A stretch of 64,000 nt of DNA from NCBI RefSeq assembly GCF_002902965.1, contig NZ_CP026107.1, positions 930,001 to 994,000 of the forward strand. The letters run 5' to 3'. The notes under the pieces were generated by a model, which had not been told where the DNA came from, ran no database searches, and was given only the letters and a program-made list of their open reading frames with translations. Shown here piece by piece: positions 9,798 to 35,566 of the stretch (within the stretch, counting starts at the first letter, position 1; each line of letters starts with the position of its first letter). The DNA is from Paraburkholderia hospita. Lineage in GTDB: Bacteria; Pseudomonadota; Gammaproteobacteria; Burkholderiales; Burkholderiaceae. Both the position numbers and the translations under genes were made by a program.

Positions 9798-10148
9798 AAA
9801 TAGCGCGGGCGAACGAGTGTCTTTCTTCCGCCCCGTAGCTACGCGAACTCACGTACGAGCCCTCAGGGTATCCCCAGAAATAAAACAATTGACGTGATTG
9901 GTTCGGTTCCCGCGCCTGGCCCGAACGATGTTTGCATTCAGCTTGCAATACTCGAAAAGTTGCCTATCGTCAGTTGTCGGGGCGTTCGTTCCGCGCTTCC
10001 AGGGAACAGTCGCGCGGGCGCATAGAGCGCCGGGCTTGAAATGACAGTCGCGTAGCCAACAAGAGAGAGGTCGTCGTGAAGCCGGTTCCTCCCGCGGTGC
10101 TGTTTTCCGTTTCCGTTGTCGGCGCTGCGGCCGGAGCGTGACGTGTCC
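9798..10148. other. Intergenic region upstream of the five-gene operon
   Basis: No gene is seen. This 351-base stretch should hold the promoter of the large operon. A possible -35-like TTGACG occurs near 9890, and a TTGCAT...TTGCAA pair lies near 9930-9948, but no convincing -10 partner could be fixed by eye. A short GTG frame at 10077 ends at 10141 and is not supported. Base composition switches from moderate to very high GC at about 10070. Confidence 0.4.
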
Positions 10149-12419
10149 ATGCCCGGCGCCGAGATCAACCAGTATGCGGCCGAGCTGGGCACGCAGCTTT
10201 CGGCTGTAGGGACGCAGCCGGCAAACCGGATTGCCTCGCTCCTCCAGGCCGCGACGGAACTTGCGGCGTTGGCCGATCGGTCCGCTGGCTCGATGACCAG
10301 CGCCGAATGGAAGATGGCTGTGTCCCAATGGGAGGCAGCCCGCGACGCCTTCGGCGCCGCGCTGTCAAAGGCACTCCTCGGTCCTCTCGCGGACATCCCG
10401 GGGGTCGCCGCGCTCGCCGACGATCTGGGCAAGCTGTCCACCGAGGGCATCCACGGCAGCGTTGACCTTGGCCCGGTTCATCTCGAAGTCGCCTCGTCGA
10501 TGCTGGTTATCCAGCCCCCCGAGTTTAGCGACCTGGTTGGCACGCCGGACCCGGTCACGATTGGCCCTTACCAGGTCGGGGAGGTTGCGGCCAGCATCGC
10601 GTCGCCATTCGGCGGCGGGGGACCGGGCGGCGGATCGCTGGTCAGACTGCCCGCTGCGGGCGGCTTCGGCGGCACGCTTGAACTGCCGCTTGGCGCCGTG
10701 CAGGTGACTGCATCCGCAGTGCTCGCGACCATCAACGGCCAGCCGTCATTCCTCGCCGTCCTCGGCGTGCAATTCCTGCCGCCTGTCCAGTTGTCCTTTG
10801 GCTTCTCGCTCGACCGCGTCGGTGGGATTGTCGGCGTCAACCGCCGCCTCGATCCTGAGGCATTGCGCGCGGCCGTGCGCACGGGCGGCGCCGGCGATGT
10901 GCTGTTCGCCGTGAAGCCGCCCGCGTCGCCATTGTCGCTCGTGACGGCGATCGACGGGTTCTTCCCCGCCCAGCCCGGCACGCATCTGGTCGGCCCGACG
11001 CTCAAGCTTGCGTGGCTCTCTTTCGGTCCGGCCGGGAGCCTGCTCGGACTGGACCTGGGCGTGATCGTCGAGTTGCCGGCGGGCCGTGTGGCCGTGCTCG
11101 GCGTGGGCCGCATCGCGATTCCTGGGCTCGACGTACTGCTCAATCTGCGGCTCGATGTCCTTGGCCTCGTCGATCCCGTGGAGCAACTGGTCAGCGTGGA
11201 CGCGAGCCTGGTCGACAGCAGCGTGCTTGGCATCTTCGAGGTCTACGGTGACGGCGCGATGCGGCTCAGCTGGGGCAGCTCGGCGTACTTCGTGGTCAGC
11301 GTGGGCGGCTTCTTCCCGGGCTTCAATCCGGAGCCGGCCCGCCTTCCGGCACTGCGGCGTGTCGGCATGACGGTGAACAACCCGGTGCCCATCATCGACA
11401 TCCGCACCGAGGGCTATTTCGCCTTCACGACCAATACCTTGCAATTCGGCGGGCGGATGGAGGTCTCCATCTCGCTTGGCATCGAGGCGCATGGATTCGT
11501 CGAGGTCGATGCACTCGTCCAGTTCCGCCCGTTCCATTTCGAAGCGCATATCGCGGCGGGTTTCGGTGTGTCGGTGGAGGGCTTCAGTTTTGCGTCGGTC
11601 ACGCTGTCGGGCATGATCGGTGGCCCGGGTCCCATCGTGATACGCGGCACGCTCTCGATCAGCGTGTTCCTCTTTTCTCTGGACTGGGACGAAACCTTCA
11701 CGTTGGGCAGCGGGCCCGCCGATGCGCTGCCCGCGCCCGTCTCCCTGCTGAAGCTCATCGCTGAAGAGCTTGGCAAGCCGCAGAGCGTGCAGAGCGCGAG
11801 CATCGCGGACGCGCAGGTGGTGCTGAAGCCGCGTCCCGGCACGCCGGGACTGGCGGCCGTGCCGGCGACGGGCGCGCTGCAGGTCTTGCAGCACCGCGCG
11901 CCGCTGGGCTTGCTGATCGACCGTGCCGATGGACGTCCGCTGGGTGGGCCACAAGGCGTGAAGGTGGACGGCGGAAGCGGCGACGTGACCGAGCGCTTCA
12001 GCCCCGGAAGCTACATTACGCTGACGCAGGCGGAAGCACTGAACCGGCCTCCATTCGATGTGCTGCCCGCCGGCCGCGTGCTCTCGTTGGCCGATCCGCT
12101 GCTCAATGCGAACCGAACGCCCGAGGACCGCGAGGTCGAGCAGATCGTCATTGTCGGCAGCCGGATCGTGAGCGAACACGAGTGGACACTGCTGACGCCG
12201 CTCGGCGAGCTGTCCGCGATGGTGGGAGCGGCAGCGCGCCCGCCCGCCCTCAGCGACGCCGCGCCGGTCATCACCGCGACAGCGGAACAATGGAGCGCGT
12301 CGAACACCGGCGAAGTCTTCGGCAGCGCCACGGCAGCGCATCAGTCTGCTCGCTATCGCGGCGGCATTGCGCTTGCCGCCAGCGATGCGGCGGCACCCGT
12401 CGACCTCGCCACGGTGTAG
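10149..12419 (+). CDS. DUF6603-domain protein (first gene of five-gene operon)
   Basis: The protein of about 756 residues is dominated by alternating hydrophobic beta strands with many Gly-Gly turns. I recognise the DUF6603 pattern: LNLRLDVLGLVDP, then VSVGGFFPGFNP before PARLPALRRVG, and FGGRMEVSISLGIEAHGFVE. DUF6603 proteins are large uncharacterised proteins of actinobacteria, myxobacteria and others; the repeats look like amphipathic beta strands of a barrel or solenoid. There is no signal peptide. The N-terminal 100 residues are helical. The ATG at 10149 is preferred; a TTG at 10116 is possible. The next gene begins six bases after the stop. The gene is much richer in GC than its left flank. 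Confidence 0.78.
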   Translation: MPGAEINQYAAELGTQLSAVGTQPANRIASLLQAATELAALADRSAGSMTSAEWKMAVSQWEAARDAFGAALSKALLGPLADIPGVAALADDLGKLSTEGIHGSVDLGPVHLEVASSMLVIQPPEFSDLVGTPDPVTIGPYQVGEVAASIASPFGGGGPGGGSLVRLPAAGGFGGTLELPLGAVQVTASAVLATINGQPSFLAVLGVQFLPPVQLSFGFSLDRVGGIVGVNRRLDPEALRAAVRTGGAGDVLFAVKPPASPLSLVTAIDGFFPAQPGTHLVGPTLKLAWLSFGPAGSLLGLDLGVIVELPAGRVAVLGVGRIAIPGLDVLLNLRLDVLGLVDPVEQLVSVDASLVDSSVLGIFEVYGDGAMRLSWGSSAYFVVSVGGFFPGFNPEPARLPALRRVGMTVNNPVPIIDIRTEGYFAFTTNTLQFGGRMEVSISLGIEAHGFVEVDALVQFRPFHFEAHIAAGFGVSVEGFSFASVTLSGMIGGPGPIVIRGTLSISVFLFSLDWDETFTLGSGPADALPAPVSLLKLIAEELGKPQSVQSASIADAQVVLKPRPGTPGLAAVPATGALQVLQHRAPLGLLIDRADGRPLGGPQGVKVDGGSGDVTERFSPGSYITLTQAEALNRPPFDVLPAGRVLSLADPLLNANRTPEDREVEQIVIVGSRIVSEHEWTLLTPLGELSAMVGAAARPPALSDAAPVITATAEQWSASNTGEVFGSATAAHQSARYRGGIALAASDAAAPVDLATV

Positions 12420-12425
12420 CGAATC

Positions 12426-14981
12426 ATGGCGAACAACAACTTCTATTCCCACTTCGACAAGGCGCTGCGAGCCGGTGCGACGGCCGCCGGCGGCGGCAGG
12501 CTGCGGGGCCAGGCCGAGGTGAAGCTGGTCGATCTCAACGATGCGACGAACCGGGCCATCGCCAATGCGAGCTACGAGCTGTTCGGCCCGGGCGACGTCG
12601 AGCGGCTGGCAGCGGGCGCGATCACGCGGCGTTTTCCCGCGCCGTTTGCAAGCAATGCCGAAGTCACCAAGCTCGCCCTGGTGGAATTTTCGGCAGTCGA
12701 CCTGCCGTGGCGCTACACGCCGCAGCTCGCCGGCGCGAATGGCTTGCGTCCCTGGCTCGTGCTGGTGGTCGGCCAGCGATCGGCCAACGACATCGTGCTG
12801 CGTCCCGATGGCCGCGTCACGCTGGGGCTCGTCGCGCAGTTCAATCATCGGCTCGGCGAATCGCTGAAGTGGGCGCACGTCCATGAGGTGGCGGGGCACG
12901 CGACGGTCGCGCGGCTGCTGGCGCCGACGCCTGCCGGTGCGGGCAATTATCTTGACGACACGGAATATGTCGCCTGCCTTGTGCCCGCGTTCACTGCATC
13001 GGGCGACGACGCGTGGGACGGCACCCGGCCGGTGACGTGTGCGCTCTATGACTGGTGGTCGTTTCGTACGGGACCAGCAGGGGACTTCCGCGATCTGGCG
13101 CGCAAGCTCCACAAGGCCGCGCTCGTCCCAAAGCCCGGCGGCAAGCCATTCGGCATCGCGCAGGTGAGCTACGCCAGCCGCGCCGCGCTGCAAAAGACGA
13201 CCCAGCTGCAGACGGCGGGCGCACTGCGCCTTCCTCGCGTGCCGGGCGACCCGCCCGATCCCGCCGACGATGCGCCGCCCAACGATGTCGTCCTGGAGAC
13301 GGCGGCGCTTGCGCGCCGGATCGTCACGCCAGACGGTCGGCCCGTCGTGACTTCGCCGCGCTACGACGCGCCCTTCGGCGATGCGAACGGACCTGACGAT
13401 CCCGTGGATAACGGCTGGATTGCGCAGCTCCGTAACGATCCGCGGCTGCGCGGCGCCGCCGGCCTCGGAGCATGGAACGCGGTCGAATGGCAGGACAGGA
13501 TCAGCGCCGCCGCAGCCTTGAAGGCGGGAGACCTCGCGATTGCCGCCGGCCGCATCCGTCATGTGGCGCTGGGTGTCGAGGTGAGCCGTTCGCTGTGGCG
13601 CCGCCGGTTGCCGGCCGATTCGCCCGAGCGTATCGCCGTGCTGATGTCTTCGCTGGGTCGATTGCTGACGACGGCTGGCCGATCCGCACTCGACGAAGTC
13701 GCCGGCCGCACCCCGCAGTTGAGCCGCGCGTTGCTGTCGTCGGCGGCGCGGCGCGCGCTGCGGCCCGGTCCCGCGCGCACTGCGCTGTCCGCCGATGGCC
13801 GTGCGCCGTTCGGGGCCGTCATCGCCGCCGCCAACGAATGCCCGGACGACCGAGCGGACCCCGCCGGCATCCACTCGACCGGGCGCGACCCCGATGCAGC
13901 CGTCAAGCAGGCGATCGTCGAGGCTGCACGCGGCGACATGGGCCTTGCCGACGCCGTCCTGCAGCGCCTCGGTTCGCACCCGGGTCCGGGCGCCGTCGCC
14001 GCGGCGCTCCGCGCGCTTGCCGCGGGGCCCGGCGGCAAGCCTGATCTCGAGGCGGTGAAACGCTTCCTCGCCACGCGAACGTTTCCGGAGCCGGACCCCT
14101 CGGTTCTCGAGTGGGACGGCTGGATGAACGAGCATGCGGCGCACGAGCCCTGTCGCACGCTCGATCTCGACGCGTTCGCCGGCATCGTGTCCAAAGCGAT
14201 CGACCCCACCGTGGCGCGTCCGCCTGCCGTCGAACGCGTGCTGGCGACGCTGCCCGGCATCGAGCACATCGGTCCCGTCGAGATCGAGCCTGAACTCGAT
14301 CTTCCGCTCTGGAGCTTCGTGTCCGAACGGGCGCCCGACTGGATGCTGCCCGGGGCAGGCGACCTGCTCGACGGCGATGTGGTCGCGCTCGGGACCAACC
14401 CCGTGTTCGTCGAATCGTACTTGGTCGGCGCCAATCATCAGGCGAGCGCCGAGCTTCGCTGGCGCAACGTTCCGCTCGTCACACGCTGGTCGCCGCTGCG
14501 CAAGTTCTGGCAGCGCAAGAGCAGCGTGCTGGACATCGTGCCGATCCGCCAATGGAAGGCCGCCGACCCGCTCGGCAGCGCAGCGTTGCTGCCGCCGGAT
14601 CATCCGGGTGACGAGGCCGTCGTCGCTTTCCGCACGACGCTGTTTCGCCGCTACCCGTCGACGGTGGTCTACCTGTACCAGCAGGAGAACGACTGGACCG
14701 CGCCGGCCCCGCACCTTGCGCTCGATCTGAACAAGCGCGTGGACCCGAGCTTCACGGGTACGATCGGCCGCGACCTCACCTTCTTCGGCTTTCCCGTCAA
14801 GCCGCAGGAACTGCTCGACTACTGGGTGGTGCTCGAAGAGCCGCCCGCCGGCTACCGTTTCTATCATGCTCCAGACCCGCTCTTGCCGGGTTCGGAGGTC
14901 CACTCCGCCGACTACGCTCACCGCCGTTTTGCGATACCCGTGCGCGTGATGATCGGGCGGCTTCTACACGATCCGGCGTGA
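12426..14981 (+). CDS. Large hypothetical protein, second gene of five-gene operon (851 aa)
   Basis: The protein starts MANNNFYSHFDKALRAGATA and shows no signal peptide or membrane segment. The first third is mixed alpha/beta with PWLVLVVGQRSANDIVLR. A central Ala/Arg-rich helical part follows (420-560). The C-terminal third is aromatic-rich, for example WRNVPLVTRWSPLRKFW and GYRFYHAPDPLLPGSE. No cysteine protease, ATPase or nuclease motif was found. It starts six bases after the DUF6603 gene and ends seven bases before the next gene, so it should be made together with them. The family is not recognised. A structural or scaffold role is only an inference from size and lack of catalytic motifs. 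Confidence 0.8.
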   Translation: MANNNFYSHFDKALRAGATAAGGGRLRGQAEVKLVDLNDATNRAIANASYELFGPGDVERLAAGAITRRFPAPFASNAEVTKLALVEFSAVDLPWRYTPQLAGANGLRPWLVLVVGQRSANDIVLRPDGRVTLGLVAQFNHRLGESLKWAHVHEVAGHATVARLLAPTPAGAGNYLDDTEYVACLVPAFTASGDDAWDGTRPVTCALYDWWSFRTGPAGDFRDLARKLHKAALVPKPGGKPFGIAQVSYASRAALQKTTQLQTAGALRLPRVPGDPPDPADDAPPNDVVLETAALARRIVTPDGRPVVTSPRYDAPFGDANGPDDPVDNGWIAQLRNDPRLRGAAGLGAWNAVEWQDRISAAAALKAGDLAIAAGRIRHVALGVEVSRSLWRRRLPADSPERIAVLMSSLGRLLTTAGRSALDEVAGRTPQLSRALLSSAARRALRPGPARTALSADGRAPFGAVIAAANECPDDRADPAGIHSTGRDPDAAVKQAIVEAARGDMGLADAVLQRLGSHPGPGAVAAALRALAAGPGGKPDLEAVKRFLATRTFPEPDPSVLEWDGWMNEHAAHEPCRTLDLDAFAGIVSKAIDPTVARPPAVERVLATLPGIEHIGPVEIEPELDLPLWSFVSERAPDWMLPGAGDLLDGDVVALGTNPVFVESYLVGANHQASAELRWRNVPLVTRWSPLRKFWQRKSSVLDIVPIRQWKAADPLGSAALLPPDHPGDEAVVAFRTTLFRRYPSTVVYLYQQENDWTAPAPHLALDLNKRVDPSFTGTIGRDLTFFGFPVKPQELLDYWVVLEEPPAGYRFYHAPDPLLPGSEVHSADYAHRRFAIPVRVMIGRLLHDPA

Positions 14982-14988
14982 GGCGCGC

Positions 14989-17900
14989 ATGAGTACGGTC
15001 GAAGTGCTTGCCCCGCTCCGGCTCGAGACGCGCTTCGTGCCGCCCGAGCAACGTACTGATGGCGTCGCGCAGTGGATGCTGCGGCTGCGCGTCTACCCGG
15101 ACGATTTCTCGGTGCCCCGCATCGTTGCGCCGCCCGCCACGGACGAACTCGACAGGCTCGCGGAGGCGATCGGCCGCATGGCGGGGCCGGCGCCATTGTC
15201 CGAAGCCGATGCGTTTGGCCTGTTCGCGGGCTTCGTCGGCGCTGGCCGCGCGCTCGCGCTGTGGCGTCAGCACGTGATCACGGACAGCGAAGGGCAGCTC
15301 GCACTCGATCGCACGGGCGAAACCGGCCACACGTCGTTCCGGGTGTACGGCGCCGTGGGGCTGCCCGAAGAGATCGACGTCTGGTTCGTCCACGCGGACG
15401 GCACGCGGCAACTGGCTGCAACGCTCACGCCGGACCGCGCCGCCATCGCCGAGGACATGGATCTCGCACAGTTCACGGCGGGTGGCCTTGCGAGCGGCAC
15501 GCTGCCGGATACCTGGTGGCTCTCGTATCCGCGAGCCGTCAAGGTCGGTCTCGGGATCGACATCGATGTGGGCGCGGTGCCGCCCGTGCTGGACGCGCTG
15601 GTCGTGCTCGGCATCGGAGAGACCGATGCCGCTGAACTCGTCGATGCGCACAACGCGTCGGCCAGAATGGCGGTGCTCGCGCCAGGCACGCCGACCAACA
15701 CCGTCGCCGGCGAGCCGACCACGGACTTTGGTGAGCATGCCGAAACGGTTTATCCGCTGTTGCATGCGAAAGCCGCCGACCAGATGTCGACGGAGTCCGT
15801 GCTGAGCGGCCTGACGGGCCGTGTTGCACCCGCTGCGTTGCCGATGCTCGGCGGCGAGCTCGATTACTACGGTCCGGGGTCGCTGGCGGTGCAGGGGTTC
15901 TGGCCCGCGCTGTGGGGACGGTATCTGCGGGATGTGACGGGCGCGGGCGAGACGGAAATCGAACTCGCGCGCTGGGCGATCCGCTACCTCGCCGTCGAAG
16001 GTCCTCGTCCGGCATTCAGGGTGGGGGAGCAGCCCTATGGTCTGCTGCCGACCTCCGCTTTCGCGAACTGGATCGATGAGCCGGGCGACGCGCTCGCCGC
16101 GATCGAAAGCCGTGTCCGCAGTTGGGCGCTGCCGTGGCGGAGCGCGACGGCCAGCGCGAATCGCGCGGCGCGCGTGCAGGTGAACGGTCAGGATTCACGC
16201 GGCCTCTTGAGCGTGCTCGGTCTGCATGCGCCGAGCCGCTACTGGGGCGTGCGCGCGACCGCCGATCTCTACCAGTTGCAAGCGCTGCGCCTTTCCCACG
16301 GCATGCCGCCGCTCGATCATCAATGGGATGACGCGGCCGCCGACGCGCTGCGCGGTGTGCCCTCGCCGCTTCATCCCGTCGGACGCGCGCCCGGACGCGG
16401 CGCCATTCCCGGCCCGCCGCGCGACGAACAGGAGAAGATCGAACTCCTGAAGCGCCTGCCGACGATGGACCCGGAGCTGCTTCTCGGCTTGCGTGCCGAA
16501 CTGGGTCTGGTCGGGCACCTGATGCGCGAGACGCTGATCGCCGGTCGCGCGATCGTCGGTGATGCCTTCCGCCGGCTCCAGCAGGGCATCCCCATTAGTC
16601 TCGGGCAGCCGCTCGCCTGGGACGACCAGGCGGCATATCGCGACGCGCTTTTTGCGGGCAGCGACGGTGCCGTCCAAACGCTTCGGACCGCGAACGATCC
16701 TGCGGGCCGGGTGCTGGCGCAGCGCTTTGCCGATGTGCAAGAGGCCCTGGGGGTGATAGCCGATCTGTGGGACAGGATGGCGCGCCCGCTGTTTCGCGCC
16801 GCGCTGGCCGCGCTGGATACCGCGGCCTTTCGCGTCGATCCGTGGCTCACGGGTCTGGCGGAACGTCGGCTGCAGCGGCTGATCTCGGCGCGTGCGCCAT
16901 TCCGCCTCGGCGTGTACGGCTGGGTCGATGCGCCCGCACCGTTCGACGCTGCGCCAGACGGCCCGCTGGCACCCGGACCGACCGTGGCAGGACTGCTGCA
17001 CGCGCCGTCCCCGGCGCAGGCCATGACGGCCGCGTTGCTGCGCGACGCGGCCGTCCGGCATCCAGGGATCGACCGGTGGCGTCTCAATCTCGACAGTGCG
17101 AAGGTGCGCGCGGCTGCCGCACTGGCCGAGCGCGTCCGGCTGGGCGTGCATCCGTATGAGGCGCTGGGACTCGAGGTCGAAAGGATTGCGGGCGACTGGG
17201 ACGTAGTCCGTACGTTGCGGGAAACCTATCCGCTGGCCGCCGACCAGCAGCAGCGCCGCGTGTGCGATGGTCAGAAGGTATTGGCCGCGGCGCGCGACGG
17301 CACGCTGGCCGCGGGGCTGCCCGCCGATCTCGCCGCGCGTCTCGCGCCGCTGGACGAGGTGCTCGACACTTACGCTGACCTGCTCGTGGCGGATGGCGTC
17401 CACGCGCTCGTCACCGGCCATGCCGATCTTGCCAACGCTGCAATGGAAGCGGCCGCCGGCCTTGGCGCGCCGCCGGAGTTGCGTGCGATCCGCACGCCGC
17501 GCGAGGCGACCACCGTCAGGGTCAGCGCATGGGTGCTTCTGCCTGCCGCCGCCACGCCCGTCGGCCCCGATGCGGACCCGGCCGCCGTCGCCGATCCGAC
17601 GTGGGATGCTGCGCTTGCTCCGATACTCGGAGGAACGGACGACGGGGCTTCGAGCGCCTCGCTCACGGGCGGCGCCTACGAAGGTCTGCCCAACACGGCC
17701 GATACCGACCTGCGCGCGGCCATTGCCGCCGATCTCGGCGCGCGGCTCGTCCAGCTCGTTGCGCTCGTGCAGTCCGCGCACGACGCCCTCGCGGCGCTCG
17801 ATCGCGCCGCCGCCGGGGCGAGCCAGGCCGTGACGGACGCGGCGGCGCGCTGGAACATCGATCTGGGCGCCACGCTGCCGACCAGTTCCGCCGATGCCGG

Positions 17901-18585
17901 GCCCGGCACGGCCGAGCGGCGCGATGCGATCGTCGCGGCGTTGGCCGACCGGCTTCAGACGGCAGCGTCGCAGCCGCCCGCCGACGTGCGGCGCGCGCTG
18001 CGCACGCTGGCCGGCCGTCCGGAACTGCCGGTGATTCCGATCGTGCCGCGCGCCGTATTGCCCGTGCTGCGCTTGCGCCCAGGCCTCGATCGGGAGTGGC
18101 TCGAAATCGTTGCCGCCGTGCGGCCGCGGCTGGCTGCGCTGGAGGCGCGTCAGCTCGACGTGGCACAGCCTGCATGGCCCAGCGCCATCGCCGCTCCCGG
18201 TGGATCTACCGACCCGTGGCATGCGACGGGCCCCGTCGTGCTCGCGTATGGTCCGGGGCTGTCGAGTTTTGGAAGCAAGGTGGCGCTTGCCGCAATCGAC
18301 GGCTGGAGCGAATCGGTCCCGAGCCGCCGTCATACGACCACGGCGGCGTTCGGCTTCAATGCGCCGAAATCGCGGGCGCCGCAAGCGGTGCTGGTCGCGG
18401 TGCCGCCCGATCTGACACAGCGGCTCGACAACGCTGGCCTGCTCGACGTGGTGCTCGAAACACGCGAAATGGCCCACGCGCGCACGCCTGCGCAGAACGT
18501 CGCGGCATCGTTGCCGCACGCGATGTCGACGGCGCTCGTGAGCGCGCGGTCGCCGTTGTCGTTTCTCGCCAACTGGCCTGCGTGA
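14989..18585 (+). CDS. Very large hypothetical protein, third gene of five-gene operon (1198 aa)
   Basis: The protein starts MSTVEVLAPLRLETRFVPPE. Recognisable features are compositional: LDYYGPGSLAVQGFWPALWG near 290, FRVGEQPYGLLPTSAFANWI near 345, a long Ala/Leu/Arg-rich helical region (450-900) and a C-terminal part with RRHTTTAAFGFNAPKSRAPQ and then AVLVAVPPDLTQRL. No membrane segments, signal peptide or nucleotide-binding motif are seen. The ATG at 14989 lies seven bases after the upstream stop. The downstream gene starts 13 bases after its stop, with GAAGGAG as Shine-Dalgarno. I cannot name a family. Confidence 0.8.
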   Translation: MSTVEVLAPLRLETRFVPPEQRTDGVAQWMLRLRVYPDDFSVPRIVAPPATDELDRLAEAIGRMAGPAPLSEADAFGLFAGFVGAGRALALWRQHVITDSEGQLALDRTGETGHTSFRVYGAVGLPEEIDVWFVHADGTRQLAATLTPDRAAIAEDMDLAQFTAGGLASGTLPDTWWLSYPRAVKVGLGIDIDVGAVPPVLDALVVLGIGETDAAELVDAHNASARMAVLAPGTPTNTVAGEPTTDFGEHAETVYPLLHAKAADQMSTESVLSGLTGRVAPAALPMLGGELDYYGPGSLAVQGFWPALWGRYLRDVTGAGETEIELARWAIRYLAVEGPRPAFRVGEQPYGLLPTSAFANWIDEPGDALAAIESRVRSWALPWRSATASANRAARVQVNGQDSRGLLSVLGLHAPSRYWGVRATADLYQLQALRLSHGMPPLDHQWDDAAADALRGVPSPLHPVGRAPGRGAIPGPPRDEQEKIELLKRLPTMDPELLLGLRAELGLVGHLMRETLIAGRAIVGDAFRRLQQGIPISLGQPLAWDDQAAYRDALFAGSDGAVQTLRTANDPAGRVLAQRFADVQEALGVIADLWDRMARPLFRAALAALDTAAFRVDPWLTGLAERRLQRLISARAPFRLGVYGWVDAPAPFDAAPDGPLAPGPTVAGLLHAPSPAQAMTAALLRDAAVRHPGIDRWRLNLDSAKVRAAAALAERVRLGVHPYEALGLEVERIAGDWDVVRTLRETYPLAADQQQRRVCDGQKVLAAARDGTLAAGLPADLAARLAPLDEVLDTYADLLVADGVHALVTGHADLANAAMEAAAGLGAPPELRAIRTPREATTVRVSAWVLLPAAATPVGPDADPAAVADPTWDAALAPILGGTDDGASSASLTGGAYEGLPNTADTDLRAAIAADLGARLVQLVALVQSAHDALAALDRAAAGASQAVTDAAARWNIDLGATLPTSSADAGPGTAERRDAIVAALADRLQTAASQPPADVRRALRTLAGRPELPVIPIVPRAVLPVLRLRPGLDREWLEIVAAVRPRLAALEARQLDVAQPAWPSAIAAPGGSTDPWHATGPVVLAYGPGLSSFGSKVALAAIDGWSESVPSRRHTTTAAFGFNAPKSRAPQAVLVAVPPDLTQRLDNAGLLDVVLETREMAHARTPAQNVAASLPHAMSTALVSARSPLSFLANWPA

Positions 18586-18598
18586 AGGAGCGTGCACG

Positions 18599-20191
18599 AT
18601 GAGCGATCCGTTCTACCTTGCGCTCGAGCCGCGTCGCGCGGACAGCGACGAGGGGCTGCGTGCGCGCGTCGCCGATCCTGTGTGGTTTCTGTCGCGCCAG
18701 TGGCAACTGGGCGAGCAGCAGGGTGAGGATGCATCGTCGCCCGTGGCCGTGCGCTGCGCGCCGCTGCACATTCCCATCAGCTACGACCGCGCGCGTCCGG
18801 ACCTCGACCCCACGGTGATTCCAGCCGAGGCATTGCTGGAGGCAGAGCCGGGCGACTGGTGGACGATTGGCCGCCGCGTGCGGCTCGGGCGTGCCGCAGC
18901 GCCGCTGCTCGACGCGACGGTGATCGGGCGCCTGAAGATGGGCCGGCTGCCGGCCCCGTACGAAGCGCTGGCTAAGGAAGTGGACGGGCGCGCTGTGTTC
19001 CTCGCCGGTCATCTGGCCGGTCACACGATGTGGGCGGAGGTGCCGTCGCCCGCGGCCGACCGCTGGTCATCATCTCAATTGCACTTTGACGCGCGCTTCG
19101 AGGCGGGCGGCACGGCGTTGCAAGTGCGTGAGCATCTGGGAGGCGATGTCGAGTGGTTCACCGTGGACGGCGCGCTGGGAACACTGACCGTGACGCGAGC
19201 CGTCGCACCCGCCGATCCGCATGAAGTGATTCCCGGCCGGCTCGATTACCCCGGCGCGCCGCAGCCGCGGTGGTGGCAACTCGAAGACCACGCCGTCGAT
19301 ATCGGCGGTTTCGCGCCTGACCGCTCGCATTTCCCGACCATGCTGCTGATCGATGCGGTGCTCGCGCATGCGGACGACTGGTTCACCTTCCCGGTCCGTC
19401 CACCCGCCGATCCCAGTCAGAATCCGTCGAGCGGGGTGTTGGTGACGCTCGAAGGCGTGACGGTGCGCGACAGCTTCGGCGAGACCTGGAATCTGTCGGC
19501 ACCCAGCGCAAGCGGCCCCGACGCGTGGTCGCTGTTCCACACAGCCGGGCTGGCCGAGTCGTCTCTCGTCGTCTGGCCGGTCGCTGTCGCGCCGCTGACG
19601 GGCCCTGCGCTCGACGAACTGCTGATCGGCGTCGATGAGGACGCCAACCTCGCGTGGGCCGTCGAGTTGCGCGCGGATGGACTGCAAGTGCTCGCGAGCG
19701 CCGATACAGCGACCGCGCTCGCGCAGGGCACGCGAACGGGCACGCGCGAATTTCGCTATTTGCCGTCCACCACCTTGCCGGATGGCTGGCATCCGTATCA
19801 GCGGATTCGTATCGGCGATCCGACGCCAGGCGGCGCGGTCGTCAGTACGGCGAATGATCCGGGCGCGGGAGATGGGCGCTCGGGTGGCTGGCGCCAGGGC
19901 GTGCTGGCCGACCTCACCGGGATGTATCCGCGGCCCCGGCCCGGCCCCGTATCACGCCTGATCGGCGGGCCGTCGGGCGCGGGCCTTGGACGCGGGCACA
20001 TGCTCGCCTCGCGCGCGATACCCAGCAATGGCGTCATGCTGCGACGGCGCGCGATGCTCGCGCGCGACACCTCCGGCCGACCGGTCCTGTGGGTCGAGCG
20101 CAGCGCGGCGCCCGTAGCCGGGCCGCCGACATCGCACCTGCGGTTCGACGTTTTCGCCGAGAACTCGGTATCGAAGCGGGGAGGCGGGTGA
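18599..20191 (+). CDS. Hypothetical protein, fourth gene of five-gene operon (530 aa)
   Basis: The protein opens MSDPFYLALEPRRADSDEGL and then has a striking aromatic motif, DPVWFLSRQWQLGEQQGED (residues 27-45), that I believe recurs in homologues from other phyla. The middle is beta-rich with many Trp (GDWWTIGRR, PRWWQLEDHAVDIGGF). The C-terminus is Gly/Pro/Arg-rich (PRPRPGPVSRLIGGPSGAG). No enzymatic motif or signal peptide is seen. Its TGA overlaps the ATG of the next gene (TGATG at 20189-20193), so it is translationally coupled to the multidomain protease, for which it may be a substrate, chaperone or inhibitor (inference). Confidence 0.8.
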   Translation: MSDPFYLALEPRRADSDEGLRARVADPVWFLSRQWQLGEQQGEDASSPVAVRCAPLHIPISYDRARPDLDPTVIPAEALLEAEPGDWWTIGRRVRLGRAAAPLLDATVIGRLKMGRLPAPYEALAKEVDGRAVFLAGHLAGHTMWAEVPSPAADRWSSSQLHFDARFEAGGTALQVREHLGGDVEWFTVDGALGTLTVTRAVAPADPHEVIPGRLDYPGAPQPRWWQLEDHAVDIGGFAPDRSHFPTMLLIDAVLAHADDWFTFPVRPPADPSQNPSSGVLVTLEGVTVRDSFGETWNLSAPSASGPDAWSLFHTAGLAESSLVVWPVAVAPLTGPALDELLIGVDEDANLAWAVELRADGLQVLASADTATALAQGTRTGTREFRYLPSTTLPDGWHPYQRIRIGDPTPGGAVVSTANDPGAGDGRSGGWRQGVLADLTGMYPRPRPGPVSRLIGGPSGAGLGRGHMLASRAIPSNGVMLRRRAMLARDTSGRPVLWVERSAAPVAGPPTSHLRFDVFAENSVSKRGGG

Positions 20192-23100
20192 TGGCCTTCG
20201 TTGACGTGCAACTGATCGATGGACTCGGGTTGCCGTATATCGCGGGCGCCGAGGCGGGGCTCGCCGATCCTCAGCTCGATCCTCTTTTCGACGCTGCATG
20301 GCAGGGCCTGCTCGCGGCTTTTCCCGGCCTGAGCCTGCAGCCCTTGTTCGATAGCCTGCCCGTTGAGCAACTGGCTGACCTCGTGGATGCCGTGCGCCTT
20401 GCCGGCAACGAACCGCCCGACCCGTTCGTATGGTTCACGTTGCCGTGCGAGGACGCCGCAGCACAGGCGCTCGCCACAGCCGCGAGCGCGCTGCCGATGG
20501 TGCGATTTGCCGGCGTGCGCGACAAGACGTATCTGCCTGTTTCCTATGGCACGAACCCCGATGCGCAGCGCACGCTGCAGATCCAGCCGTCGCCGAACGG
20601 CGTCGATGCCGTCTATGCGTGGGACGTCGCCGGCGGGTCCGGCGACGGCGCACGTGTCGCCGACATCGAAAGCGGCTGGCTTCTGACGCACGAGGAACTG
20701 ATCGGCGCGCGGGTGCGCAAGCTGTCGGTGTTCGGATCGGCTCTTGTCGATCACGGTACGGGCGTCGTTGGCATCGTGGCCGGCTCGGACAACGGAGTCG
20801 GGACAATCGGCATCGCGCCCGGTGCGGCCGTAGACCTTGTAACGGAGGATCGCGGCGGGGTAGCGAACCGCGCCGCAGCCATCGCCGTGGCAACCGCAAA
20901 CCTCTCCAGCGGCGATATCCTGCTGATCGAGGGCGCGCTGCCCTTCACGCCGACACCCGAGCCGGCCATCCTGGTGGAGTTCGATCCCGCCGTGCAGGCG
21001 GCCATCGGCATCGCAGTGGGCCGTGGCATCACGGTGATCGAGCCGGCGGGCAACGGCGGCGTCGACCTGGACCAGTTCCCCTTCCTGGCCCACACGCGGC
21101 CTGATTCGCTCACCTTCAGCGGTGCGATCGTCGTTGGCGCGGGTGAGTTTTCGGGCCCGCCGTCCGATCAATGGGCGCGCACGTTTTCGTCGTTCGGCAG
21201 CCGGGTCGACTGCTTTGCGGCGGGCGCCGCGATTCGCGCGCCGGCGGCGAGCGCACCCAACGCTTACCAGAGCTTCAGCGGCACGTCGGGGGCATCGGCG
21301 ATTATTGCTGCGAGTGCAGCGCTGCTGCAGTCGATGACGCGCGCCGCTACGGGAGGGACGCTTCTGCCCGCCGACGTGCGCCGGCTGTTCCGGAGCGCGT
21401 CGCTGGGCGTGCTGCCGGACGATCCGCTCGGCGCGCGCATCGGCGCGATGCCGGACCTGCGCAAGATCATCCGTGCGCAAGGACTCGCGCGTGTGCTGCC
21501 TGTGGCGGGCGCCACGTCCGGCGGGGACGCGCTGTTCATCGTCCATCTCGACGCCGACAACCGGATGGTGCGGCGGCATTGGACATTCTTCACAGGCTGG
21601 GGTCGGCCGCTCACCGCAGACCCGCCGAACGACCGCTTCGAACTGGTCGCCGCACAACCCGCTGCGATCTCGACGGAGGAAACGCAGCCGCTCGCACGGC
21701 TGCGGCACGACGCGTTCTTCGGCGGCGCGGGCGGCATCCAGCATATGTTCTGGGATTCGCTGGGCCAACAGGGCGATGTTTCGAAGCCGGTGGTCGCAAC
21801 CGGGCTGGTCGCGGAAGGGCGCGCGGTCGCGGTGGCGCTGCCGACACCGGACCGGCTGCTGCTGGCGGCGACCAATCCGCAAGGGCGACTCGTCGTGTTC
21901 GTCGGCGACCTGCAAACGCTGCTGGCGGGCATGAGCGCGCCGCTGGTCCTCGATTCCGTAGCGAGCTATCGCCGTGTCGCGGGGCCCGTACTGGCCTCGC
22001 GCGGCGCAGGCAGTGCCGACGTGGTCGCGATCGAAGACGGCGGCAGCTTCAAGTGGTACACGGGCAACGTCCTCGCGACGGTCGGGACGGGCTGGAGCGG
22101 AGCCGTTACCGACCCGAGCGGCGTGGCGTTCGAGCCCGGCGCGCGGCCGGCGCTGCTGGCGCTCGACGGCAGGTTGATTGCCGCGGCGGTTGGCTCGGAG
22201 GGCTGGTTGCGGGCAATCGACATCGATCCCGCCTCGCAGACGATCGCCGAGCCGGTCGTCGTCGACGTGCAGGCGACCATCGACACGCTCGGGCCGCTCG
22301 CCCTCGCGCTGGCTGGCAACCGCGTCGTGGTTATCGCCGTCGACACCGAACGTGTGCTGCGTGCCGCGACACGCGCCATCGCTGGCGGCGACTGGACGCC
22401 GCTGCTGCCGATCGTCTCGGATACCGCGATCAGCCCGCTCGGCGGCGTCACGGCGGTGTCGATCGATCTGGGCGTGATGGCGATCGCGGTCGACGTCGGC
22501 GGGACGATCCGGTCGGCGCTGTCGGCCAATGGGCTCGAATGGACCGCGCTCGCTCCGCTGTCCCCGTTGGCGGAACCAGCGGACTTCACCGAGACGTCGC
22601 CGCTGCGCTCCGCGCGCCTGACGGGCGATCCCGTGCTGCGGTCGTGCCTCGCTGGCGAGCACCGCATGATGGCGGGCGAAGATGGCCTGCCGGTCATGCG
22701 GCTTCAGCAGGCCCTGATCGATCTTGGACAGCCTGTGGGTCCGGCGGGTGCCGATGGTGCGTTCGGCCCGGACACGGGCGCCGCCGTGGCGGCCTACAAG
22801 GCGGACAAAGGGTTGGTTCCTGATGATCCCGTCGTCGGACCGGGAACGACGCGGGCTCTCGACGCCGACCTGCTGTTCGAGCCGCCGGGACTTGATCCGA
22901 CCTTCGCCGAATTCAGCCCGTTTGTCGTCGAACATCGGCTCGAACAGTTCGTCGCGCTCGAGCTTGCGTCGCTCCTGCATGCGCCGCTCGATTCCTGGCG
23001 ACACATGCTCGGCCGCTCGGCGCTGGCGCTTCTGAGTTCGGGAGCGCTTCTCGGGATCGTCGCGCGCAGCCGCCTGGACGATCTGAAAGAGCGCTTCACG

Positions 23101-23850
23101 CGGACCGCCGACTCGATGCAGCGCGGAATGAGCGCCGATACGCTCTTCAGCCAGGCGGCCGATTCGAACAATCCGGCAGTCACGATGATGTTCTCAAGCG
23201 GTGGCACGATCAAATCGTTCATTGTCGTGAACGACACGACGATTCTCGGACGTGAAACGATCGTGCGCCGTGTCGATGGCACGCTTGCGCCCGTGACCTT
23301 GCAGGGCGTTCTCGTGCACGAACTGACGCACGCGCGCAATGCATCTGCTCTCGAAGCACTGCGGGCAACGGCCGATACGGATGCGCTGGTGTACGCCGAC
23401 ACCGCTCTGGCGCAGGCTCGTTCCGCCACGGGTAGCCCGAGTGCGAATGTGTTCCGGTCATTCGTTTCCGAGCTGACCGCGCGACATGTGCACTGGGTCG
23501 TGCTGAGGGAACTTGCGGGCACGCCAGGGAGTCTTGCCGTGCTGTCACTGCCGGCGGATCAACTGGCCGAGGCGGCGTTGATCTACTTCGTCGAGATTTC
23601 GCATCTGTTCGACTCGAATGGCTACATTGCTGGCATCAATGCGCAACACGACGCAAAGCGGTTCAGCCAGTTGGCGTTGTGGCTGAAGCATTGCGCCGAT
23701 CAATCGTTCAGTGATGTCGAGGATCAGGACAGGCAGTCGACGCTAGTGTTTCAGGCGGCCGCGCGGGTGTGTGCCGAATGGGCTGTGGACGGGCCTCTGG
23801 ATGTGCCCGACGAGAGCGGTCTTTATCCTTTGCCTGACGATTTTGTATAG
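20191..23850 (+). CDS. Multidomain protein: subtilisin-like (S8) protease, peptidoglycan-binding-type domain and HELTH zincin
   Basis: Domains of this 1219-residue protein, counting from the ATG at 20191: an N-terminal region (1-150) that could serve as a prodomain; an S8 fold with Asp158 in RVADIESGW, His188 in VDHGTGVVG, oxyanion Asn288 in EPAGNGG and Ser366 in SGTSGASA; a beta-rich, propeller-like region (about 440-800); a peptidoglycan-binding-like helical bundle (828-892, LPVMRLQQALIDLGQ then GAFGPDTGAAVAAYK); and a C-terminal part with a zinc-protease motif VHELTHARN (His1043, Glu1044, His1047). The third zinc ligand is not certain. No signal peptide is seen. Two peptidase sites in one chain are unusual. 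The start overlaps the previous stop and follows GGGGAGG; an open frame continuing to 20089 only shadows the previous gene. Confidence 0.85.
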   Translation: MAFVDVQLIDGLGLPYIAGAEAGLADPQLDPLFDAAWQGLLAAFPGLSLQPLFDSLPVEQLADLVDAVRLAGNEPPDPFVWFTLPCEDAAAQALATAASALPMVRFAGVRDKTYLPVSYGTNPDAQRTLQIQPSPNGVDAVYAWDVAGGSGDGARVADIESGWLLTHEELIGARVRKLSVFGSALVDHGTGVVGIVAGSDNGVGTIGIAPGAAVDLVTEDRGGVANRAAAIAVATANLSSGDILLIEGALPFTPTPEPAILVEFDPAVQAAIGIAVGRGITVIEPAGNGGVDLDQFPFLAHTRPDSLTFSGAIVVGAGEFSGPPSDQWARTFSSFGSRVDCFAAGAAIRAPAASAPNAYQSFSGTSGASAIIAASAALLQSMTRAATGGTLLPADVRRLFRSASLGVLPDDPLGARIGAMPDLRKIIRAQGLARVLPVAGATSGGDALFIVHLDADNRMVRRHWTFFTGWGRPLTADPPNDRFELVAAQPAAISTEETQPLARLRHDAFFGGAGGIQHMFWDSLGQQGDVSKPVVATGLVAEGRAVAVALPTPDRLLLAATNPQGRLVVFVGDLQTLLAGMSAPLVLDSVASYRRVAGPVLASRGAGSADVVAIEDGGSFKWYTGNVLATVGTGWSGAVTDPSGVAFEPGARPALLALDGRLIAAAVGSEGWLRAIDIDPASQTIAEPVVVDVQATIDTLGPLALALAGNRVVVIAVDTERVLRAATRAIAGGDWTPLLPIVSDTAISPLGGVTAVSIDLGVMAIAVDVGGTIRSALSANGLEWTALAPLSPLAEPADFTETSPLRSARLTGDPVLRSCLAGEHRMMAGEDGLPVMRLQQALIDLGQPVGPAGADGAFGPDTGAAVAAYKADKGLVPDDPVVGPGTTRALDADLLFEPPGLDPTFAEFSPFVVEHRLEQFVALELASLLHAPLDSWRHMLGRSALALLSSGALLGIVARSRLDDLKERFTRTADSMQRGMSADTLFSQAADSNNPAVTMMFSSGGTIKSFIVVNDTTILGRETIVRRVDGTLAPVTLQGVLVHELTHARNASALEALRATADTDALVYADTALAQARSATGSPSANVFRSFVSELTARHVHWVVLRELAGTPGSLAVLSLPADQLAEAALIYFVEISHLFDSNGYIAGINAQHDAKRFSQLALWLKHCADQSFSDVEDQDRQSTLVFQAAARVCAEWAVDGPLDVPDESGLYPLPDDFV

Positions 23851-24621
23851 CGCTATGTGTTGGTTTGACGAAGGAGAGGGTGGGGAGGATGGTTTGCCGG
23901 ACGCCGTGTGCGCGTCTGAGTGTGCTCAGGAACGTGACGGGCGGGATCGTTTCGGTCGAGTTATCAAGTCAAAAATGGAAGTCGTCGGCCAGATATCAAT
24001 TGTCCCTCGAGGGCGATAGAAACAGACCTTGCAAGATGGCGATTCTTGCGCAGCGCCATCGTAACGGGTTTGTTGTATTCGCTCGTGCGTTCGCGGACCG
24101 CGATTGTTGATGGTGAGCCGACACGTCGCGTCTCAGAGCAGCCATGCGCGTTCATTCGCTCATTCGATTCCTTGGCGATTCAAGCGGCGACTCCGCCTCG
24201 ATAAGCGGTCGTTGCATCTGCAACAGGGAAAATGACGAAATGTCGGCCTTAGCCGACATTCAGCTATCGGCAACGGTGTGACGGCTTTACGTTGCTTTCC
24301 GCCCATTCGCAGCTCGGCAGATTCTGTCCACCGGCCGCGCTCTCGTGGGCGGCGCCTCCCGCGAAGGGAATCACAGATCCGCCATTACCGGAATTTCTAA
24401 AGATTCGCCGGAAAGACTTTTGCCTCACTGAATACGCTTAGCGCTCAGTGGCGGCATGCGCGTCTGGCGGCCGGGAAAGATAACGATCATGTAATGATCG
24501 GGTCAGCATCGGGACAGGCACCACTGCCGAGAATGAAGGAACTACTCATCGACGCCGATGGGGAGGCTCAAGGTCGCGTTCATGGTGAATGTGGCCGCTA
24601 CGCTCCCAAAGGGGAACCATC
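23851..24621. other. Long intergenic region after the five-gene operon
   Basis: About 770 bases without a convincing gene; the frames at 23865-24110 and 24558-24980 lack ribosome sites and family character. GC falls sharply compared with the operon. A perfect hairpin, AATGTCGGC-loop-GCCGACATT, is present at about 24238-24259 and belongs to a short intergenic motif seen elsewhere in the window. No T-run follows it. This region probably marks the right edge of the operon-bearing segment. Confidence 0.5.
24238..24259. repeat. Palindromic intergenic hairpin (ATGTCGGC/GCCGACAT)
   Basis: The sequence reads AATGTCGGC, four-base loop, GCCGACATT, a nine-base perfect stem. Related short strings (TGTCGGCAATGGCCGA and variants) occur at about 27178-27202, 31929-31962 and 37158-37176, all in gene-free stretches. 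It is most likely a degenerate copy of a dispersed intergenic repeat rather than a terminator, as no T-tract follows. Confidence 0.45.
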
Positions 24622-24936
24622 ATGAAAGCACTGGTCAAGGCCGTACTGATTGCCTGCGCGCTGAGCGCATCTACATTCGCGTTTGCCGAAACCTCAACCG
24701 CGCCGGTGACTCGCGCCGAGGTACAAGCCGATCTCGTCCGGGTCGAACAAGCCGGTTATCGTCCAGCAGCGAAGGATCCGTACTATCCCTCCGACATCCA
24801 GGCGGCCGAGGCGAAGGTCGCGGCGCAACGCCAAACGCCCGAGGCGGCGTCGGTCGGCGGCGTGCCGACGGGCGCCTCACAGGCCGGCGCGCCTCTTGCG
24901 CTGAACGACGCGCAGCCGGTCTACGATCACCATTGA
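24622..24936 (+). CDS. DUF4148-family small exported protein
   Basis: The 104-residue protein has a Sec signal peptide, MKALVKAVLIACALSASTFA then FAET, followed by the DUF4148 core VTRAEVQADLVRVEQAGYRP then AAKDPYYPSDIQAAEAKVA. DUF4148 proteins are abundant small periplasmic proteins of Burkholderiaceae with unknown function. The ATG follows AAAGGGGAACCATC. The C-terminus is low complexity (GVPTGASQAGAPLALNDAQ). It is monocistronic. Confidence 0.85.
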   Translation: MKALVKAVLIACALSASTFAFAETSTAPVTRAEVQADLVRVEQAGYRPAAKDPYYPSDIQAAEAKVAAQRQTPEAASVGGVPTGASQAGAPLALNDAQPVYDHH

Positions 24937-25222
24937 AGCACGTCATGTTGCCGGCCGCTGCCGGACCCGGTCCGGCGTAAGAGGGACGCGTCTTAGCCTG
25001 AACTCTTGAAGCGCGCGGCACGCTGTTCCACGCCGCGTCCTTTCTTTGATGGTAACGCACCAACATTTTCTCCGTGCTCGGCACTCGTACGACCGGCAGC
25101 AACGGCGGTACCGTCAATTTTATTGCCCCGCTCGACACCATCGCATATCGGAGCGCGACGTTGTGGTCTCGCTTACATTCCGCCGCTGCTATGCCTGCTC
25201 GTGACGCCCATTAAGACAACAC

Positions 25223-25567
25223 TTGGATTCCAGAACGATTCAATCGATCAGGGCACACCTGATGGTCGCCTCGCTAGCCGCGATCGCAATTGACGCAAGC
25301 GTTCTTGCGGTGATGGGACTATTCAATGTGCCGGAGTCGGCCTTCGAAACGACGATCTTTCGGATCGCGGTGATTTTTGGCGTATCTCTCGCGATATTCT
25401 GGGCACGAAGTCTGGCGCTCATATCCTATCGATCGGCTCTGCGACAGGGTCACATTTTGATGGCCACTGAAATCGAAGACATACATCTGTCTGAAGCGTG
25501 TCCCTTCCGACCACTCGTGATACTGCACTTTCGACTGTCGGGTGTTTCGCGAAATCTGATTCGATAG
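25223..25567 (+). CDS. Possible two-helix membrane protein (doubtful)
   Basis: The open frame encodes 114 residues with two hydrophobic segments, LMVASLAAIAIDASVLAVMG and TIFRIAVIFGVSLAIFWARS, then a polar tail. The first codon would be TTG at 25223, or ATG at 25262, neither with a good ribosome site. The hydrophobic pattern argues for coding, while the poor start and lack of recognised family argue against it. A real gene may be only partly preserved here. Confidence 0.35.
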   Translation: MDSRTIQSIRAHLMVASLAAIAIDASVLAVMGLFNVPESAFETTIFRIAVIFGVSLAIFWARSLALISYRSALRQGHILMATEIEDIHLSEACPFRPLVILHFRLSGVSRNLIR

Positions 25568-25945
25568 CGATTCGATTCGCTCAACTTTCACATAGGATGG
25601 ATGGTTCCAAATGCGTGGGAATAAGCGCTATGGACCCTGCCCGCCACCCTTGGGTCCGTCCGCCATGGCGTGAGCCCAGCAAGGATTCGTCATTGATACG
25701 CTATGCAAAACAAACTTATCGCAATCGCGTCCACTGGGTCACTGGTTGCTGTTGCCGACTCTTTTTTTTCGGTTGCCGAGATTGGCGTGAAGCGCCTTGA
25801 TGTCGACCTCCTCGTGGAATGGGCGGCATTGGTGAACTCGTGACCCGATCACGGCGTGTCGGCAACCGGTTCACTTTTGCATCGGCAGCAACAACCCTTT
25901 CGGCCTGCTAGACTGAAAGTTCCCCTGCAAGCTATGGAGGGAGAC
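25568..25945. other. Intergenic region, no supported gene
   Basis: Nothing is firmly supported. A 46-codon frame starting MQNKLIAIASTGSLVAVADS (25703-25843) has a protein-like composition but no Shine-Dalgarno, and a 20-codon frame at about 25611 is Pro-rich. Either could be a small gene; I do not call them. Confidence 0.3.
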
Positions 25946-26134
25946 ATGACGACCGTCTACGTCGTGAAGACTGGCGAGAAGTTCCTCTGCACCGCAGAGG
26001 ACGGCGATATCGGCATGGCGCCGGAGATTAAGGAAGCCACGGCCTTTCTCTCGTATGAGGAAGCGAACAAAATCGCGAACGAGCACGCCGACCCCGGATA
26101 CGAAATCGTGGCCGTCGACCGTACGAGACCCTGA
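25946..26134 (+). CDS. Small conserved hypothetical protein (62 aa)
   Basis: The protein begins MTTVYVVKTGEKFLCTAEDG and ends in an EANKIANEHADPGYEIVAVD pattern. It is a compact alpha/beta sequence with one Cys. GGAGGGAGAC directly before the ATG is a strong ribosome site. I recall similar proteins in Burkholderia but no function. The stop codon lies immediately before a tRNA-like remnant (26137), so the gene 3' end may be a fusion produced by insertion at that site. Confidence 0.65.
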   Translation: MTTVYVVKTGEKFLCTAEDGDIGMAPEIKEATAFLSYEEANKIANEHADPGYEIVAVDRTRP

Positions 26135-26136
26135 TG

Positions 26137-26206
26137 AGGAGTTCAGCGGCAGTTCGTCGGACTCATAACTCGAAGGTCGTAGGTTCAAATCCTACCCCCG
26201 CAACTA
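26137..26206 (+). tRNA. Initiator-tRNA-fMet-like remnant (5' acceptor strand lost, mismatched anticodon stem)
   Basis: The sequence follows the bacterial tRNA-fMet pattern: a D-arm-like GTTCAGCGGCAGTTCG, an anticodon loop CTCATAA (anticodon CAT), the variable segment AAGGTCG, a perfect T arm GTAGGTTCAAATCCTAC and a 3' strand CCCCGCA followed by ACTA instead of ACCA. The 5' side has no partner for CCCCGCA, and the anticodon stem has an A-C mismatch, so it should not be functional. Such a 3'-biased fragment is what integration into a tRNA gene leaves behind; it is a candidate attachment-site scar. Confidence 0.6.
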
Positions 26207-26319
26207 GGTGCAGTAAGGCGTTGCGCGATTCAGGCCATTTTCGCCACCGGGTTTGTCGTCGAATTTGGGCGCTATGTGGGCGCTGGCCGCGAAAATCCGG
26301 CAAAAACCGTCACACCATC

Positions 26320-26345
26320 AAACCCGCCTGCGAGCGGGTTTTTTG
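26320..26345 (+). terminator. Rho-independent terminator
   Basis: AACCCGC, six-base loop, GCGGGTT followed by TTTT forms a classical stem plus T-run. Its plus-strand orientation fits termination of transcription coming from the 25946 gene and the tRNA-like region. It is 38 bases from the 3' end of the convergent gene at 26384. Confidence 0.8.
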
Positions 26346-26383
26346 TTTTCGGCGCGAGCTTGCGCCGGTCCTCTCCGCTCCCG

Positions 26384-26890
26384 TCAGGCAGCAGCGAGTT
26401 CTTCCTTGATTTCGTGGTACTTCTCCCACGCCTGCTCGGAAACGCGAACTTCATCGTGCCATGCTGCTTCGGCTGCTTCCCGCGCCGCCTTGGCCGCGAG
26501 CACGACATCCTCAGTGACGTCGCCTTTCTTGTGCGCTACGACCATCGCCTTGTAATGCGCCACCGCGACGGACTTGTGGTGTTCCTTCGCCAGTTTTTCT
26601 TCCTTGGCAATATGCACGAGTTTCAGCACGTACTTGAGCAGTTCCTCTTTGCTTCTGAACTTCGGCTTCACCCTCGGATACTCGGCAAAGTACGTATCCC
26701 AGGCCGCTACACTTTCCGCGCAGTGCGCGATGTATTCACTGTAAGCCGCTTTCTTTTCCTCGCCGGGCGGAAGGGCTTCGAATCTGTGCCTTGCCGCGTT
26801 TTTCACCGTTGACACTTCGATCGCCTTGACGAGCACGGGCGGTTTCAGCAGCCGTACCCTATAGAGCAGTTTCTTGAGCAGTTCCATCAT
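26384..26890 (-). CDS. Hypothetical helical protein (168 aa)
   Basis: The protein begins MMELLKKLLYRVRLLKPPVL and is almost entirely helical, rich in Lys, Glu and Ala (AAKAAREAAEAAWHDEVRVS). GGAGAGAGAA before the ATG at 26890 supports this start rather than a GTG eight codons earlier. There is no signal peptide and no known motif. The terminator at 26320 is on the other strand. I do not recognise a family. Confidence 0.6.
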   Translation of the reverse strand: MMELLKKLLYRVRLLKPPVLVKAIEVSTVKNAARHRFEALPPGEEKKAAYSEYIAHCAESVAAWDTYFAEYPRVKPKFRSKEELLKYVLKLVHIAKEEKLAKEHHKSVAVAHYKAMVVAHKKGDVTEDVVLAAKAAREAAEAAWHDEVRVSEQAWEKYHEIKEELAAA

Positions 26891-27604: not shown

Positions 27605-27677
27605 CTGTCGACCTCTCAAGGTCCTCCATGCCGTGCACGATCAATGATTGCCTCAGTTCGGGTGGATCTGCAAGTAT

Positions 27678-27887: not shown

Positions 27888-27918
27888 GATGAAATCTCCT
27901 TTGGACGAATCGCCGCAG

Positions 27919-28626: not shown

Positions 28627-28639
28627 GGTCAGATAAATA

Positions 28640-35550: not shown

Positions 35551-35566
35551 CGGAGCTTTCGACACC

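Follow-up and report, generated by a model that had tools for sequence, protein, structure and literature searches.

Organization of the Five-gene Block

Within the 64,000 nucleotides (nt) of Paraburkholderia hospita contig NZ_CP026107.1 that we analyzed (positions 930,001 to 994,000 of the forward strand; referred to throughout as the window), five large genes, g1 to g5, follow one another on the plus strand, the first coding for a DUF6603 protein and the last for a multidomain subtilisin-like protein. These genes had been proposed in an earlier note on this DNA, and their coordinates, lengths, and spacing are borne out by our calls of open reading frames (ORFs), as are the assignment of g1 to DUF6603 and the lack of a recognized family for g2, g3, and g4. 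The features are as follows.

10149..12419, plus strand: g1, DUF6603 protein, 756 amino acids from ATG (PF20248, E 5.5e-81)
10452..11705, plus strand: beta-strand run of g1, residues 102-519 (AlphaFold2 prediction)
12426..14981, plus strand: g2, family-less, 851 amino acids (no Pfam or NCBIfam match above cut-off)
14989..18585, plus strand: g3, family-less, 1198 amino acids (no Pfam or NCBIfam match above cut-off)
18599..20191, plus strand: g4, family-less, 530 amino acids (no Pfam or NCBIfam match above cut-off)
20191..23850, plus strand: g5, subtilisin-like multidomain partner, 1219 amino acids (Pfam)
20749..21396, plus strand: Peptidase_S8 of g5, residues 187-402 (Pfam, E 2.4e-12)
22690..22860, plus strand: PG_binding_1 of g5, residues 834-890 (Pfam)
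23317..23331, plus strand: HELTH motif of g5, zincin-like by motif alone
9798..37254, strand not applicable: stretch with the block that is missing in congener G291 (flank comparison)

The genes are separated by 6 nt (g1/g2), 7 nt (g2/g3), and 13 nt (g3/g4), and g4 and g5 overlap by a single base (TGATG). The GC content of the block, 0.67-0.72 against 0.55-0.64 in the remaining window, is higher than that of its flanks, as had been noticed before. This is in part a property of the core genes themselves: in other hosts g2-g4 also lies above its own downstream flank (median +4.7 points, lowest -2; 63 loci), and because of this GC is by itself a weak sign of foreign origin. Two long minus-strand ORFs opposite the block, at 10746-14921 (1391 amino acids) and 19798-23004 (1068 amino acids), are of the kind expected in high-GC genes and were rejected as genes.

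Four Genes Form a Conserved Core

A search with g4 gave 14 plasmid records and, in genome contigs, 254 relatives; nine of the former and the best 80 of the latter, together with the window, make up a survey of 90 loci, from which hidden Markov models (HMMs) of g1 to g4 were built and then run on all 90. A simple purpose-made gene finder supplied the gene starts and spacing, and weak matches to g4 ORFs by the g3 profile, which was trained partly on fused g3-g4 proteins, were left uncounted.

All four core genes are present on one strand and in the order 1-2-3-4 in 69 of the 90 loci, an organization that is more than chance. The complete loci span 11 phyla (Pseudomonadota, Actinomycetota, Bacteroidota, Acidobacteriota, Nitrospirota, Chloroflexota, Planctomycetota, Myxococcota, Cyanobacteriota, Gemmatimonadota, and Bacillota), although g1 is often a fragment in them where the stretch ends inside the gene, and the successive intergenic medians are 2, 5, and 4 nt (69, 75, and 81 gene pairs). 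A further 17 loci are truncated where the locus or contig ends, and four others are incomplete: the DUF6603 gene missing from L049 was found just beyond the fetched stretch, L033 has merely 404 nt of upstream sequence, L079 has an incomplete g3 and lacks g1 and g2, and L076 has a broken g4 with no g1-g3 within 9.9 kb. Counted together, 19 of these 21 loci are cut. In five loci, four from Streptomyces and one from Mesorhizobium, g3 and g4 are a single ORF.

The same linkage is seen in whole genomes. In each of the 42 tested from the 80 contig loci, DUF6603 lies at most about 13 kb upstream of g4, with g2 beside it; five carry an extra DUF6603 match: G262 has a second type A block, three have more distant DUF6603 genes (two of these with a g2-like neighbor), and one has a fragment. 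DUF6603 matches 13 plasmid records, every one of which carries g4 as well, and haloarchaeal plasmids carry the unit with DUF6603 annotated or matched directly before g2. The view that the genes form one unit is thus upheld by core linkage across phyla and by the g3-g4 fusions. The earlier note had held that homologues scattered over genomes would speak against a system of five genes; g1-g4 stay together across 11 bacterial phyla as well as haloarchaea, so the three family-less genes are not scattered, but the protease is.

A lone g4 with a g3 remnant lies near IS5 transposases on a Streptomyces anthocyanicus plasmid (L177, 17047-18852), g1 and g2 being absent from the sequence read, and looks like a decayed block. 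A phage-labelled, unverified faecal scaffold (L175, MT835531.1) carries a partial DUF6603 gene, g2, g3, and g4 at one end and is probably a mislabelled bacterial contig. In Rhizobium lusitanum (L006) and Halobellus (L176), g2 and g3 are broken into several adjoining genes.

The Unit Is Mobile

Among 79 relatives searched, g2 is present in two of the 47 genomes of the same genus. In G291, window position 9797 joins 37255 across about 36 nt between flanks that are ~92% identical, and the 27.5 kb that include the block are absent; in G332, window 8739-23876 is present at 96% and rejoins at 37263. The rarity of the block in the genus favors gain as an island, with deletion in G291 being less likely. 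The G291 junction and the two carriers among 47 indicate gain or loss as a block, which supports the previous suggestion that the genes were acquired as one. In the g4 tree the window lies nearest an Acidobacteria metagenome-assembled genome (MAG) and then Cupriavidus, and phyla are mixed, with 33 changes against a minimum of 9, a count that bins and paralogues may inflate.

Inside the stretch, 26132-26203 gives an Rfam tRNA match of 30.5 bits (gathering score 29) that is uncalled by ARAGORN and whose 3' part recurs in many relatives; it is probably a tRNA fragment and perhaps the remnant of an attachment site.

The Partner Is Exchangeable

To survey the partner, we took the sequence upstream of type A DUF6603 genes in 41 stretches (L110-L149, L150) and counted a same-strand gene within 300 nt as a direct upstream partner. 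An enzyme stands directly upstream in 26 of the 41, some of them called by the weak matches weighed below. The 10 proteases are trypsin-like (Nal1-type) in five stretches, S8 in three, and M64 in two; the 16 non-proteases are PhoD-like phosphatases in 13 (eight above the Pfam cut-off, all 13 with the motifs GDQ[IV]YAD and DDH[ED]) and PLD, DyP-like, and ferritin-like proteins in one each. A tyrosinase lies four genes upstream in one stretch, and in two Cupriavidus loci it is the downstream side that carries S8. The g4 tree requires at least 15 changes of partner class (39 loci in nine classes, some labels being weak calls), where the minimum possible is 8, and partners have therefore been exchanged.

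The partner in the window, g5, is a member of the S8 family (47.2 bits against a cut-off of 21.8), and its Asp158, His188, and Ser366 fit the triad motifs by eye. It had been described as a fused subtilisin and zincin; the subtilisin half holds, by Pfam and the triad motifs, but the zincin half is unconfirmed, with only the HELTH motif starting at residue 1043 and no match to a Pfam family; the five related or neighboring proteins that were inspected contain no HExxH. Relatives of g5 occupy the same place in Cupriavidus, Nocardia, and an Acidobacteria MAG, where the gene is a fragment, and this S8 set is the only family to recur across genera in an all-against-all BLAST of the 45 same-strand genes downstream of g4, 16 of which were covered by a Pfam scan. 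Two tandem S8 partners stand upstream of L049 in Streptomyces hyaluromycini (L140).

These data bear directly on the first interpretation of the block, in which the five genes encode one assembly or export/processing system and the fused protease matures the giant proteins. Such a system would account for the tight operon with an S8 partner in the window, Cupriavidus, Nocardia, and the Acidobacteria MAG. It is disfavored because in 29 of the 41 stretches the partner is something other than a protease or no partner is recognized; the full core is also found beside PhoD (e.g. L083, L059-type lengths), and no transport ATPase or channel is recognized in g1-g5 (Pfam, NCBIfam). We regard the processing system as very improbable and already largely refuted. 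What survives of the proposal is that g1-g4 are one unit, and what finds no support is the protease as a fixed part, given 10 of 41 upstream protease partners plus the two downstream S8 genes.

A WHRxxGP-containing module of ~130 residues is found in trypsin-like partners, in a Frankia S8 partner, in a Gemmatirosa fragment, and in both upstream genes of Paraburkholderia caribensis, one of which is a double-trypsin protein with the module between its trypsin stretches. It is matched eight times in six of the 42 whole genomes (at most 102 candidates were scored in each), always directly beside DUF6603. The module resembles a docking domain, and may act as one.

Exchangeable hydrolases, together with a patchy and mobile distribution on plasmids and an island and the lack of visible signal peptides, would also suit an intracellular defense or stress complex, whose core senses an invader or damage and activates the bound enzyme to kill or protect the producer. 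We consider this unlikely. In contrast to known anti-phage defense systems, none of eight proteins (the five of the window and three partners) has a PADLOC match at E <= 0.01, and g1-g4 have no recognized NTPase, nucleic-acid, or nucleotide-signal domain (Pfam, NCBIfam). DyP-, tyrosinase-, and ferritin-like effectors would be unusual for defense, which counts against such a complex.

Predicted Properties of the Core Proteins

The match of g1 to PF20248 covers residues 101-626 with 273.1 bits against a gathering score of 27. In the AlphaFold2 model (pLDDT 81), residues 102-519 form long antiparallel amphipathic beta strands, mostly of 8-18 residues each, and the beta moment is elevated relative to shuffled sequences (z = 4.6), so that DUF6603 is predicted to be a large amphipathic beta sheet. 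Fold matches of the model are porin-like and ApoB-like. As a check for homology to vitellogenin/ApoB, the g1 profile has no PDB sequence match at E <= 1 in a search of a kind that overlooks remote kin. By hydropathy, the N terminus of g1 has no signal-like stretch, and the core proteins examined have no clear signal peptide or transmembrane helix.

A long antiparallel amphipathic sheet is also the feature that g1, as predicted, shares with ApoB and other large lipid transfer proteins and with beta-barrel porins; it differs from them in having no PDB sequence match in that search, no visible signal peptide, and a root mean square deviation (rmsd) of ~10-12 Å. An outer-membrane porin would in addition need a Sec signal and a diderm host, whereas the loci also occur in Actinomycetota, Bacillota, and haloarchaea. 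The core could instead be a lipid or envelope machine, in which DUF6603 provides an ApoB-like or bridge-like lipid belt or groove, and lipid or hydrophobic compounds are moved or stored by the core and modified by the partner enzymes. The predicted fold with its amphipathic strands, the existence of DUF6603 relatives of 1.5-3.4 thousand amino acids, and the PhoD and PLD partners are consistent with such a machine; the high rmsd and low TM-scores of the fold matches argue against it, as do the protease partners, which are poorly suited as lipid modifiers, and we find it rather doubtful.

The top Foldseek match of g1 is the S-layer complex protein 7zgx (E 7.5e-4, TM 0.16), which points to another option, a structural or storage assembly such as a large particle or surface coat, with the neighboring enzyme often carried along as a passenger on the same mobile islands. 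The large size of the proteins and the absence of a recognized catalytic family in g1-g4 (Pfam) would fit, but the partner genes are recurrent, tightly placed, and on the same strand, and the shared module was seen at the locus only. We find such an assembly improbable.

The g2 model folds with good confidence, its beta-rich N- and C-terminal parts flanking a central helical part, and has no convincing PDB match. For g3 there is a HAMP match below threshold only (E 0.1), and a comparison of g1-g4 with PHROGs yields a single weak match, of g3 to a family of unknown function (E 0.039).

A Possible Carrier of Interchangeable Enzymes

We tentatively favor the reading that the block is a version of a widespread mobile unit in which a fixed four-protein core (g1-g4) serves as carrier or scaffold for an exchangeable partner, usually an enzyme. 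The four core proteins would come together in the cytoplasm as a single particle or scaffold, on which the partner docks, through the ~130-residue module where it is present. The DUF6603 sheet would face lipid or membrane, as a belt around lipid in the manner of the ApoB beta belt or as an inserted barrel, and the particle would carry the enzyme to a membrane or, once released, onto or into another cell. In its strongest form, DUF6603-g2-g3-g4 would be a new class of prokaryotic delivery particle, in which an ApoB-like or barrel sheet and three proteins of new families package interchangeable enzymes, docked in part by the dedicated module, and leave the producer to bring the enzyme onto or into other cells; we consider this unlikely. 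Delivery would fit partners of extracellular type that have no visible signal peptide.

Tc (ABC) toxins and extracellular contractile injection systems combine large, invariant carrier proteins with an enzyme that can be swapped, and the block has a likeness to them in working plan only. Tc toxins contain the Pfam domains Rhs, SpvB, VRP1, and their kin, and the TcA/TcB/TcC domains are not matched in g1-g5 at E <= 1 (Pfam). An extracellular contractile injection system consists of tube, sheath, baseplate, and AAA+ ATPase genes, and such components were not found in g1-g5 by Pfam or in g1-g4 by PHROGs. Encapsulin-type compartments have DyP- and ferritin-like proteins among their cargo types, but g1-g5 have no match to a shell family (Pfam).

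Several observations weigh against the carrier. The data show linkage, fusion, partner exchange, and mobility, but assembly, packaging, release, delivery, and a target are inferred, and in the part of the neighbors that was scanned we recognized no gene for lysis, receptor binding, a motor, or immunity. The fold matches of g1 have rmsd values of 7-12 Å and TM-scores by query of at most 0.19 among the 50 Foldseek matches listed, and do not separate a barrel from an open belt. Many partner classes are weak calls: five of the 13 PhoD assignments (four below the Pfam cut-off, one by 90% identity to another of the 13), all five trypsin-like ones (below the cut-off or by BLAST), the DyP-like match (below the cut-off), and one of the two M64 partners (below the cut-off and spread over two genes). 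In three of the 41 stretches the partner is a WD40 propeller and no enzyme, and nine have no recognized partner. No module was found in g5 or in partners of the PhoD, M64, or WD40 type, and the genome scan for it scored at most 102 candidates per genome. Finally, a pattern search of the two S8 partners of L049 finds neither the usual HGT motif nor the catalytic GTS motif; they are possibly inactive or divergent, and with the usual His and Ser motifs gone, a partner need not be catalytic.

Pfam gives no function for DUF6603, whose linked neighbors here are three additional families and a variable enzyme, and we found no description of DUF6603/PF20248 or of the four-gene unit in the literature searched. 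Of the four protein families in the unit, three have no Pfam match and the fourth has just a DUF name; the unit spans 11 bacterial phyla and haloarchaea, and its fixed core, swappable partners, and locus-only module lead to testable predictions, namely co-purification, lipid binding, and module-dependent docking. A true carrier would be a new kind of natural enzyme-delivery machine; failing that, DUF6603 still gains a context in which its function can be tested.

A Second Type of DUF6603 Operon

DUF6603 was found in seven of 249 sampled Pseudomonadota genomes and g4 in the window genome only (at most five candidates were scored for g4 in each). The six genomes besides that of the window contain operons that we name type B, with DUF6603 proteins of 1513-3390 amino acids, four of the six being longer than 3.2 thousand. 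A g2-like protein follows DUF6603 in four of the six, three recognized by HMM (E 1.4e-8, 8.9e-6, and 6.2e-5) and the fourth by BLAST to these and an hhalign probability of 94%. Unlike the present unit, the later large proteins of type B (about 620-1770 amino acids) have no likeness to g3 or g4 by hhalign. In one type B operon (among L098-L109), the upstream protein matches metallo-beta-lactamase below the cut-off.

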